A program made the translations under genes and the position numbers. Shown here one piece after another: positions 1 to 64,000 of a stretch of 64,000 nucleotides of DNA. This DNA is from Gari tellinella (lineage: Eukaryota; Mollusca; Bivalvia; Cardiida; Psammobiidae). The notes beneath the pieces were generated by a model that was not told where the DNA came from, made no database searches, and saw nothing but the letters and a program-made list of their open reading frames with translations. The DNA lies in the NCBI GenBank assembly GCA_922989275.2, contig OV277874.1:14930154-14994153 (forward strand), in the 5' to 3' direction. Position 1 is the first letter of the stretch; each line of letters begins with the position of its first letter.

Positions 1-51
1 GGGAATTGCACTTGCTGTCGGGGGATAGATGTCCTCGTGGAAGTTGTTGTT
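1..51 (-). CDS. Coronin coding exon 9 (partial, cut by window edge)
   Basis: 17 codons, [17 protein letters not shown], after acceptor CAG at 54-52. It follows VPRK in phase 0 and matches the coronin stretch that precedes the C-terminal coiled coil. Confidence 0.85.
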
Positions 52-3000
52 CTGTAAAGAGAATTAAACGTACATCAAATTAAGATGATTAGCCGTAAAA
101 AAGGAGCCAAAGTGAATCAAAGGTATGAAAATAAAGTTAGGAGGACACTTTAACCCAATGGAATTTGTTGTTCTGTTAAGAGTCAAGAGAATTTCCTGGA
201 ATTAACCTATTACCACATAATCTGTTTCTAGTATTAAAGATAGATGACCACTTAAAGCAGGTTGAAAGTAAAGCAGAATGCCCTTTAACCCTTTACCCCA
301 TAGCCTGTTTTTAGTTGTGAAGACGGGTGAAAGTAAAGCACTCCTTTAGGAGCTTACTGTTTAACTTTCAACTCACTTTAAGCTGTCATAATATCAAATA
401 GATTTATTTTGATGATTGTAAAAGAGAGGAATACTGTATTTTTACTGAATAGATATTTAAGTTTTTGAGATAGTAGTAGGGAGTATACAGTGTTCCCTCT
501 CTACAACGGCCCTCCCAACAACAACTCCCTCTTTACAACGACCCTTGCCACAGTTCCCTAAACAGGACAAGTATATCTAACACTTTTATCGTCTGCTTCA
601 AATTGTCGTCTGCTGTTTAATCTCAAAGTAATATATAAGTTGACATTGTCATAGAATAAATATAATGACGAGTGACAAACAGCTTAAATCCAGATCAGAC
701 GCCGCGTAACGCGGCGTCTGATCTGGATTCAAGCTGTTTGCAAATGTAAGCCAATCCTTAATGTTCCCTCCTTATAACGACTCTCTCCGAACAATGCACA
801 CAATCTGTGTCTCCCATTGGGTGTCGTTGTAAAGGGGGAGCACTGTAGATACAGATGGCATTCCACTGATGGACAATCCACCGGTTCTTTTACATGCCCT
901 CTGAATAGCATCGGTACTTGGGAACTCTGTTTCTAAAGACCATTCATTTAGGGCAGCCGGTGCTAGAACCAGCAACCTCTGTGTAACAAGTCAAGCATAA
1001 TAATGTTACCACGAATCTGCCACTAAACGAACAGGCATACAGGGGCTCCAGATAAAAGGAGGTAAATTGAACAAATCCAACATTTTCTCCTTCATGTCAA
1101 TACCAAATCCTATGGTGTAACTACTCATTAGAATTGTCTCGAAGAGTAATAACAGCATAGGGTTTAATGCAGACATAAAGATTTTAAATTCTTGAAATAC
1201 TCTCACTCTGACAGTACTAATGAATAGTCACATCATGAGGTTTAATGCTTACATAAAAATATAGAAAAGCCTGGAGATCCTGTGTAAGAACCGCCATGCG
1301 TGCAGCTAGCCAGTTACCTGGAAGGGAGTCCACTGTTGTGGACAATGCTCCCACCCCTGCACGTTAATCAAAAATCCGATGATGATGATAAAAAGTTTAA
1401 ATTCTTGAAATAGCCCGCCTTATCTGAAGCCCTGGGAATGGGGTTAACCACCTGTACCTTTCTAGGGACTATCATAGAAATGGGCTCCACGTAATTCCTA
1501 GCTGCATGTAATTTGTAGAACCTCATAATCTCGCACCTGCTCGGATCACATCCTCGCTTAGGCATCACCCCTAGAAAAATACACAGAAAAGTAAATAATG
1601 ACACAATTTTACTGAACAGAAAGTAAATAATAACACAATTTTACAAAAGTTTAGGTAATCATCCCTAGAAAAATACGCAGAAAATAAGTAGTAAAATCTA
1701 TCTAATACCACTAAAATCAAGGCGAATTGATTGAAGAAAAGACAAGTGACAGCTTAACCCTTTTCCCAATAGAAGCCCCTTTTCGCGCATTCAGTTTATT
1801 CCATCGCTGAAGAAAATAGTTCCAATTTAATCAGTCATAAATATATATTATAGAGAATATTTTCTATATTCTAGCATATGATAGCTTAAAGCAGGCTGAA
1901 AGTAAAGCAGAATGCACCTTAAGGCGCATTCTGCTTTACTTTCAACCTGCTTTAAGTAGTTGCCTATCGTCAATACTAGAAATAGGATATCAGGTAAAGG
2001 ATCAATCCCTTTCCCACAATAGTATTGAATATAGGTGTCCACTTAAAGCAAGTTGAAAGTAAAGCAGAATGCGCTTTAAGCCTGCTTTAAGCTATCATCT
2101 GCTAGAATATAGAAAATATTTTGTATTATACATATTTATGAATGTATAAATTGGAACTATTTTCTTCAGGGCAAGAATAAACTGAATGGGCTAAAAGGCG
2201 CTTCTATGGGGGAAAGGGTTAAAGCAAGGTGACAGTAAAACAGAAAGCTCCTATAAGAGATTTCTGTTTTACCATCACCTGACTTCAAGCAGTCACCAGT
2301 CGTAAACACCTAATAATTAACACAACTTAGTAAGAATGTGACCGCACACATGTTACTGTATAATATTATGTACTATGCTAAGGTATTTCATATGGCAATG
2401 AATAAAGTTCAGTCGTACACCAGGGTAACAATTTATAACGAATTTCATACTATCAATAGAGTGAATACTGTTTAAAGCAAAGTCCGCTTGTCCCTTAGAA
2501 TTCGTAATAACCAAAAGTTCTAGTTAACCAAGAAAAAACGCATTGAAAATATCCGAAGTCCGAAAGCGGTCAAGGTCAATTGACATTGTTTGGTATGAGA
2601 AATGATCCATTATTCTATTAAATTTTGTTGATGCTGCACGAATCTGGTTAACTCATTCACCCCTGAAACTTTAAATGGACAATTCCAGTTTACAACTAAA
2701 TTTATTCCATTTTTTAATAATTAGGGTGTTTTTTAACAATATTTTACAAAATGACAAAAAGTGTAGACCCTGATCAGAGGGCTCCTTAAGGAGCCCTCTG
2801 ATCAGGGTCTACACTGTTTGTGCAGGACAAATATATTCTTTATAGGTGTATGTTTTTTTCATGACGAGAATACTCGTCGCTAGGGTTCAATGTGTTAACC
2901 TAGTACACATGAATGGATGGGCAGGACAATCACAATATGCCTCCAGTATCTATTGGTTGTTAAAAATAGCTACAGTTGAACTTCGATATCTCGAGCTTAG

Positions 3001-63020: not shown

Positions 63021-63170
63021 TTGTAAATACAAGATATCTCTGATCAGGATCTACCCTGTTTATTATTTTGCAACAATAAAATCAACCATTAATAGTCAAA
63101 CATGGACGGTACTTATTGAATATTGGAATTCTCCATTAAAAAGTACATTCGCCCTGCTTTATTCGTTTTA

Positions 63171-64000
63171 GGGAATATGAAACTGAACCAATTGGACAGA
63201 TTATTTTATTATGTACGTACACGGTAATAATATACATGTATATCATGCACAACACCGCGACGGGCGATAAACACACAAGCATATACTGAATTACTTACAT
63301 CTTGTTTTATGTGTATACTCAGTTGGTAACCACGAACTTTCCTACAGGACTGGCCCTTTCAGTGTTCAAAACATTCCATAATATGCTTACTTCAAAAAAC
63401 CAAAACTCGTATAATACATTGTTTTGATTGTTGATTTTGCATATGTTAAGACCCCTTCTCATATAGATAGGCCAATAATCTGAAAATATAAATAAAAACT
63501 ACATTGCATTATCAAATATATGGGTTCCTGGTCCCTTAGGATTCTTACAATTACACGCAAACACCTAACAACAGGCGAAACTGGTTGGAAGGAACATATT
63601 ATCAACTTAACCCTTTAGTTGAACTACCAAACAAAGAGGCCAAATGTGATCCCACTTTTTCTAGAATATCTCAGCACACTAATTCGATTTGAACTTTATT
63701 ATTATACCAGATTTATATAGCGCTCTTTTCACTAGAGCTGAGAAAATTGCAGCGAGTCACACCCGGCGCATAACTGGATGTTATTTTTTCAAAATGTCAA
63801 CAAGAAAAAAATTCAGACTACGCAATTAACTTAGTCTATGTGACCAAATCGTATTACTCTATAATAAATACACATGCAGAATGAATGCTCTCTACTTTTA
63901 GTTAGATAGTGAAAATTAATAAGCCTACACGTTAAAGACGTATCCGGGAGTTGTTACTGCGCATCCCAAACGCGCATGTCCTTTCCGCTCTTTTCAGTAT
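63171..64000. other. Upstream region, no gene recognised
   Basis: Contains a short dispersed motif (TATTATACCAGATTTATATA at about 63700) also seen inverted near 5110-5132. Likely upstream flank of the HEPN-NACHT gene. Confidence 0.45.
63299..63360 (-). promoter_or_regulatory. Candidate 5' UTR exon of the HEPN-NACHT gene
   Basis: A consensus donor GTAAGTAA begins at 63298 on the minus strand. It would splice to the acceptor just before the ATG at 62442. The upstream exon limit and promoter are not visible. Signal-based guess only. Confidence 0.25.

Follow-up and report, generated by a model that had tools for sequence, protein, structure and literature searches.

How do miniature inverted-repeat transposable elements (MITEs) with unrelated termini come to carry the same internal palindrome? 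This question is raised by a 64-kb stretch of the Gari tellinella genome (C19:14930154-14994153, hereafter the window; the eukaryotic assembly spans 1.6 Gb in 80 contigs), where a hairpin scan detects 61 near-perfect hairpins, most of them located centrally in short elements with recognisable ends. For comparison outside the window, we sampled contigs C1-C4 at round coordinates, picking twenty stretches of 10 kb each before inspection (hereafter random stretches). Palindrome arms were compared by positions counted outward from the palindrome centre, and significance was assessed by shuffling (4,000 shuffles, with 100,000 for nine pairs). The window elements are designated TTAA-A to -F, TA-1, TA-2, TA-3, CAG-1, CAG-2, GGG-1 and GGG-2. 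An earlier note on this DNA had named eleven elements, all of which are present with the ends described and with coordinates correct to within about 2 bp; its TTAA-2 to -5 are real but represent four separate families (B, D, C and E, respectively), and there is an extra family, TTAA-F, at 51344-51553.

The palindromes fall into three classes, K1, K2 and K3, that cross the terminus classes beyond chance, as the earlier note had proposed. In K1, TTAA-A and CAG-2 agree at 33 of 34 arm positions; in K2, the 28 pairs among eight families (TTAA-B to -F, TA-1, TA-3 and GGG-2) match at 20-31 of 31; and in K3, CAG-1 and GGG-1 match at 23 of 32, with none of the 4,000 shuffles as good in any class. For the nine within-class pairs shuffled 100,000 times, the observed match was never reached in seven cases and was reached once in two, so that chance or convergence of GC-rich hairpins is refuted for the tested pairs within K1, K2 and K3. 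The arms of K1 and K2 are weakly alike, as unrelated short hairpins may be (best pair 18/31, reached in 43 of 100,000 shuffles, other pairs weaker), a marginal likeness that would suit convergence; as an explanation of the sharing, we nevertheless hold chance to be exceedingly improbable. K1 and K2 might form one deep class. The sharing of K3 is not a matter of a few central bases, and the flanks of this pair are weakly alike, too (left p 0.010, right p 0.0005; in the other run, 0.020 and 0.003). Outside the hairpin, the CGTCTGC box, which sits in the left flank, and the GAGTG(A/T)CAAACAG junction, both pointed out previously, are borne out and are common to TA-1, TTAA-C, -D and -F.

The combinations of termini and palindromes are reticulate: TTAA ends occur with K1 and K2, CAG ends with K1 and K3, and GGG ends with K3 and K2, and the similarity of termini correlates weakly with that of the arms (Mantel r 0.297, p 0.056; 13 families). 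The palindromes of TA-3 and TTAA-C are identical at 59/65 positions and those of TTAA-B and TTAA-E at 62/66, with the flanks at or near chance, and those of GGG-2 and TA-1 at 54/61, with the flanks at chance; conversely, GGG-1 and GGG-2 have similar ends (0.8) and dissimilar arms (0.22). Vertical descent of all these MITEs from one ancestor, with gradual remodelling of the termini, would account for the related ends of GGG-1 and GGG-2 and of the TTAA families but is at odds with the reticulate table and with palindromes shared between different target types across flanks at chance, and we consider it decidedly unlikely. The sharing of palindromes across terminus classes is confirmed as real and is much larger than the earlier note stated.

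The carrier elements are about 190-370 bp long, and in the TTAA, TA and CAG families, terminal inverted repeats and target duplications fit MITEs; the elements are dispersed and multicopy, with a 23-mer of CAG-2, for example, present in 7,702 exact copies in the genome. Terminal inverted repeats are typical of piggyBac-like, Tc1/mariner-like and hAT-like MITEs, with target duplications of TTAA, of TA and of a short fixed length, respectively; hAT-like elements typically duplicate 8 bp. In the window, TTAA or TA stands at both borders in all nine nested cases, the nested sites of the TTAA families are restored to TTAA, and TA is found by eye at the ends of TA-1, TA-3 and the further family TA-4 introduced below. 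By target site, the TTAA and TA families resemble piggyBac-like and Tc1/mariner-like MITEs, their transposase partners being putative. The CAG elements show a 6-bp duplication in 9 of the 14 listed (by eye), which we take to be a hint of hAT-like affinity; CAG-1 and CAG-2 were considered as hAT members and were not assigned, the duplication being 6 bp rather than 8 bp. At the four GGG-1 and GGG-2 elements inspected, a clear target duplication was not seen.

The origin of the sharing can be approached through the borders of the shared part, which in three families takes in about 40-110 bp of one flank besides the palindrome. With window-only sequences, a repeat of the border test that is free of misplaced TTAA-F and TA-1 copies, the left flank of TA-1 can be aligned with the window's only TTAA-F copy, starting at base 2 of the TTAA-F end (70/89), and that of TTAA-C with the same copy, starting at base 1 of that end and 34 bp inside TTAA-C (71/100; both at the floor of p 1/5001). 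With added copies, where one of the six TTAA-F copies is in fact TA-1 and 2 of the 16 TA-1 copies are closer to TTAA-C, the matches to TTAA-F are 76/95 for TA-1 and 79/105 for TTAA-C, and CAG-2 matches TTAA-A at 36/42, starting at base 6 of the latter, all at the floor of p 1/2001. The TTAA at the cassette border is altered in each consensus, reading CTAA in TA-1, TTTA in TTAA-C and GTAC in CAG-2; the exact TA-1 junction occurs at 824 sites in the genome, and among the first 100 matches listed, 7 have TTAA and about 80 have CTAA (by eye). On the right side, similarity stops soon past the palindrome in TA-1 and CAG-2.

Nested insertions are common in the window, and in six of the nine that were tested, the sequences to either side rejoin to give an outer element that aligns left and right of the insertion. 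Two TTAA-A elements, in opposite orientation, occupy the corresponding TTAA of two CAG-1 copies, that is, hairpin MITEs reside inside CAG-ended MITEs today: one lies at 14771-15022 (plus strand; K1 palindrome 14820-14891) in the CAG-1 MITE 14635-15074, and the other at 20394-20640 (minus strand; K1 palindrome 20527-20598) in the CAG-1 MITE 20264-20690. The K1 palindrome itself offers TTAA targets: at 1754-2222 and 13762-13998, K1-type palindromes have apparently taken up a TTAA-A and a TTAA-B MITE at the TTAA of their outer arm.

We propose, giving it an even chance, that the carriers are mosaic MITEs produced by rare founder capture through nesting, with one palindrome subtype amplified per family. 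A hairpin-bearing TTAA MITE with a piggyBac-like target site would insert into another MITE, and its inner ends would be lost, the left TTAA via base changes and the right end via deletion. The outer ends (Tc1/mariner-like TA, CAG with its 6-bp target, or another TTAA) would then mobilise the whole and found a hairpin-carrying family. Capture would be rare and would occur at the birth of a family, each family thereafter amplifying with one palindrome subtype, and one hairpin type would thereby be spread by several unrelated transposition machineries. What is observed is the sharing beyond chance, a changed TTAA end bordering the cassette in three families, nested insertions that could serve as raw material, and the tie of subtype to terminus; the order of events and the transposases involved are what we infer from it.

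Several observations weigh against founder capture. Three of the nine nested cases are unclean (for TTAA-B in TTAA-A, the right side alone aligns well, TA-1 in CAG-2 rejoins in part, and the third lacks a consensus); TA-3, GGG-2, TTAA-B and TTAA-E show no convincing flank likeness to other K2 families (B/E left, weak, p 0.03); the border in CAG-2 is displaced inward by 5 bp from the TTAA-A end, with GTAC three changes away from TTAA; and neither CAG-2 nor TA-1 was found without the cassette. The direction could be reversed, with TTAA-F born inside TA-1, and a chimera described below shows that recombination through the palindrome also happens. In the random stretches, moreover, CAG-1 palindromes differ more than their flanks (73/397 vs 76/512 cells, not significant), and TA-1 palindromes are not significantly below theirs. 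A CAG-2 copy without a palindrome, considered as a pre-capture form, proved on alignment to carry an internal deletion. The small extent of sharing past the palindrome in TA-3, GGG-2, TTAA-B/E and the CAG-1/GGG-1 pair may be due either to nesting of great age or to recombination through the palindrome.

The linkage between palindrome subtype and terminus bears on the timing of the sharing. Louvain clustering of flanks merged unrelated families and was dropped, and known termini were used instead, most elements being counted twice, once per end. Among the 268 termini in the random stretches, 212 have an assignable palindrome, 54 have none and 2 are at an edge. The subtype is that of the family for 208 of the 212, and likewise for 120 of 127 termini in the window (10 more are without a palindrome); subtype ownership is not fully private because TTAA-A and CAG-2 are both credited with K1, and TTAA-B and TTAA-E both with K2b. 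Counted from the palindromes, 72 of the 105 that could be assigned to a class in the random stretches are flanked by both ends of one family, each fitting the subtype; the other 33 have one known end or none and include seven K1b palindromes with TA-4 ends, then unlisted, and one K2g palindrome labelled GGG-1 in this count was labelled GGG-2 in the count from the ends. A flank-only test recognised the halves to the left and right of 154 palindromes, and in 150 of these the two belong to the same family; the remaining four comprise one chimera, one artefact (CAG-2 contains TTAA-A sequence) and two cases of the same half twice. The lack of congruence claimed previously thus holds for the classes, which cross terminus types, but not at the subtype level, where palindrome and terminus are largely tied. 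Free exchange of palindromes fails at this fine scale, and the linkage implies that the sharing mainly dates from the birth of families, not from continuing exchange.

The same counts bear on the suggestion that the palindrome is a minute mobile unit that inserts into MITEs by itself. The nearly coincident K2 borders across carriers would fit such mobility, as would the 5 of 56 K2 palindromes without a known terminus in the 200 kb of random stretches, one of the five being TTAA-ended by eye. However, no target duplication is seen by eye at the K2 consensus borders, the shared part extends into one flank in three families, and the 72 palindromes between matching ends of a single family point the other way, so that we regard movement of the palindromes on their own as very unlikely. 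Of the 62 palindromes in the window, all but one are flanked by a known terminus: 56 have one on each side and 5 on a single side, about 4 of the 56 being spurious or outer-element spans (those at 4930, 8009, 18369 and 25359); the sole palindrome without a known terminus sits in a TA-4 remnant.

A stronger competitor, although we find it somewhat less probable than an even bet, is recombination through the palindrome, by crossing-over, template switching during gap repair or ectopic conversion, which would join halves of, or copy the hairpin alone between, MITEs that already carry related palindromes. The chimera (L016 5641-5976) is direct evidence of this kind: TTAA-C accounts for the left part, from its first base up to and including the left arm, and TA-1 for the right part, from the right arm onward to its end, the two being joined inside a K2 palindrome. 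The near-identical palindromes beside flanks at or near chance in TA-3/TTAA-C and TTAA-B/-E, and the dissimilar arms between the similar ends of GGG-1 and GGG-2, also favour recombination. Against it, the chimera is a single degraded copy, the 150 same-family joins and the 208 subtype matches indicate that such events are rare, and partial copies do not break preferentially within palindromes. Of what the earlier note had raised, transfer of the palindrome between target types is supported, and exchange by recombination has one direct example but is rare. Palindromes had been considered as break-point hot spots, and this was not supported overall (31 of 81 break points inside vs 32.6 expected); within 12 bp of the palindrome centre, there are 22 break points vs 11 expected, nine of them from one tandem array. 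Directly upstream of the chimera, the sequence GTCACTCGTCATTA (L016 5600-5640) reads by eye as an inverted TA-1 flank and hints at a more complex rearrangement. Overall, the data are best read as founder capture with occasional recombination through the palindrome beside it, the hairpin being kept symmetrical.

Could the hairpin itself favour amplification? In copies chosen by their flanks, the palindromes in the window differ at 196/3083 cells vs 814/6651 in the flanks (lower in 7/7 families, significantly in five), and those in the random stretches differ at 555/6309 vs 2122/14444 (lower in 5/6 families, significantly in four). For single-copy changes in the window, the gap is smaller (89/3083 vs 258/6651, p 0.014). 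The 20-bp termini differ at 144/1687 cells in the window and 339/3294 in the random stretches, so that the palindromes are lower in total, yet they are lower in 4/7 and 2/6 families, respectively. The palindrome had at first appeared to be the best conserved part in 9/9 families, but those copies were found via their hairpins; with flank-chosen copies, it is not below the termini in most. Among 50 copies in the window, 10 have lost at least 14 bp of the palindrome, as have 16 of 102 copies in the random stretches.

Arm symmetry persists while the families diverge. Among nine K2 groups, 13 of the 31 arm positions vary between groups, and the change is present on both arms in 1429 of 1625 between-group comparisons, counts that are not independent events; one arm asymmetry is fixed, in TA-3, and the same position is unequal in several TTAA-B and -E copies. 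Either selection for pairing or hairpin-templated correction could maintain this likeness. A further reading would make the palindrome an amplification module that works independently of the transposase, such as a hairpin recruiting a host repair or replication factor, so that any MITE acquiring it spreads and its symmetry is kept by selection. We consider this unlikely, the more so since palindromes are not below the termini in most families.

The palindromes are widespread in the genome. The random stretches contain 129 hairpins, 99 of which belong to K1-K3 by arm similarity (37 K1-type, 56 K2 and 6 K3, with 30 other). The K2 core GATCAGACGCCGNGTNACNCGGCGTCTGATC is almost identical to its reverse complement; it occurs exactly at 139,314 genome sites, compared with 0 for the reversed control, and among the first 100 matches listed, 96 keep the variable pair of the stem complementary (by eye). 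TA-4 is a further TA-ended K1 carrier (arm 27/33 with K1; flank similarity p 0.028; 7 copies), and one more TA-ended element, identified by eye, has an arm matching K1 at 25/33. As for relatives outside this genome, scans of IMG/VR returned 0, 6, 0 and 0 stretches, the six matching a 17-base word only and hence taken as chance, and the GTDB contigs gave 0 matches to one K1 word.

Further K1 and K2 carriers in the window illustrate the range of these elements. TA-1 MITEs lie on the plus strand at 486-847 (K2a palindrome 676-740), 6245-6611 (the TA-1 of the earlier note; K2a 6448-6512, with CGTCTGC-type boxes and an altered inner TTAA-type end) and 9627-9982 (palindrome partly deleted, 23 bp short), and on the minus strand at 25266-25624, apparently nested in the CAG-2 element 25233-25930 with the empty site partly confirmed, and 34950-35311 (K2a 35050-35114). 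CAG-2 MITEs, all on the plus strand, occupy 23267-23505 (K1 23381-23452), 24569-24823 (K1 24691-24762; 6-bp target duplication AAGTAA) and 44150-44404 (K1 44272-44343; 6-bp target duplication TTATTC). TTAA-B is represented on the plus strand at 3691-3940, with a perfect K2b palindrome (3797-3862), and at 10213-10654 (K2b 10511-10576), the latter split by a plus-strand TTAA-D MITE inserted at TTAA (10285-10479; K2d 10375-10439); another TTAA-D, on the minus strand at 10917-11121 (K2d 10957-11021), is inserted in a TTAA-A MITE. TTAA-C lies at 35635-35886 (plus; K2c 35782-35846) and 36899-37148 (minus; K2c 36939-37003), and TTAA-F, from whose very end the TA-1 and TTAA-C cassettes align, is on the minus strand, with a perfect K2c palindrome at 51387-51451. 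TTAA-E (8145-8379, plus; K2b-type 8264-8329) is inserted in a TA-3 remnant, a TA-3 MITE lies at 36570-36819 (minus; K2t 36689-36755), and GGG-2 at 53766-54008 (plus; K2g 53855-53923) has all 31 of 31 arm positions paired.

K3 is carried on the plus strand by CAG-1 at 9986-10178 (palindrome 10040-10114; 6-bp target duplication TATACT) and by GGG-1 at 15727-15969 (palindrome 15800-15896). A tandem array at 16550-17495 (period 89, 10.4 copies) has as its unit the right half of CAG-1, starting about 2 bp off the K3 centre. Large, otherwise different palindromes at 37674-37735, 62678-62825 and 52912-52968 resemble one another at the centre around CGAGGCTTTGCCGAG (by eye), possibly a fourth shared core, and in carriers whose ends are outside the listed families, the palindrome TTTGATTGGTCAGATTTGAGCC recurs (L030 1665-1730 and 5352-5417; L033 9885-9930). 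The window also contains what looks by eye like a Tc1/mariner-like remnant (45076-46880), an inverted minisatellite with ACCGCAAACCACC-type units (47796-48480) and open reading frames (ORFs) for a reverse transcriptase (RVT_1; 55482-56951) and for a NACHT-domain protein of 805 amino acids and a DUF4559 protein (38663-41080 and 61936-62442, respectively; minus strand), the latter two being in keeping with a mollusc.

A search of open-access literature listings, a scope that most subscription papers fall outside, found no description of a hairpin module shared among MITEs, and none of the 11 papers matching sequence words was judged relevant from the listing. The closest analogue, as far as the available parts of the source go, is the highly conserved domain of unrelated short interspersed elements (SINEs), such as V, CORE and Deu, a central domain common to elements with unrelated ends, together with MER6, a composite MITE that carries a V-SINE body inside a TA-target MITE (PMC6887750). 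The K palindromes are likewise shared by elements with unrelated ends, although their carriers are not SINEs and so are not members of that group. They also differ from the SINE domains and MER6 as presented there in that the shared part is a near-perfect palindrome of 65-72 bp, DNA MITEs serve as donor as well as host, and within one genome the palindrome occurs in several terminus classes. Galileo, of the P superfamily, in Drosophila willistoni offers a parallel as regards recombination or gap repair between copies, its structural variation being attributed to gap repair, template switching and ectopic recombination, but it is a single P-superfamily element, and the accessible portions of the report make no mention of a hairpin module shared with unrelated termini (PMC4168063).

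MITEs are usually classed by their termini, with the interiors treated as filler, whereas here an interior hairpin crosses target types; clustering MITEs by their interiors would therefore merge unrelated families. In most families, this hairpin has also diverged less than the sequence on either side, and with these observations it can be tested whether internal hairpins promote MITE amplification. Should the palindrome turn out to be an amplification module, it would be a DNA-transposon counterpart of the highly conserved domains of SINEs.

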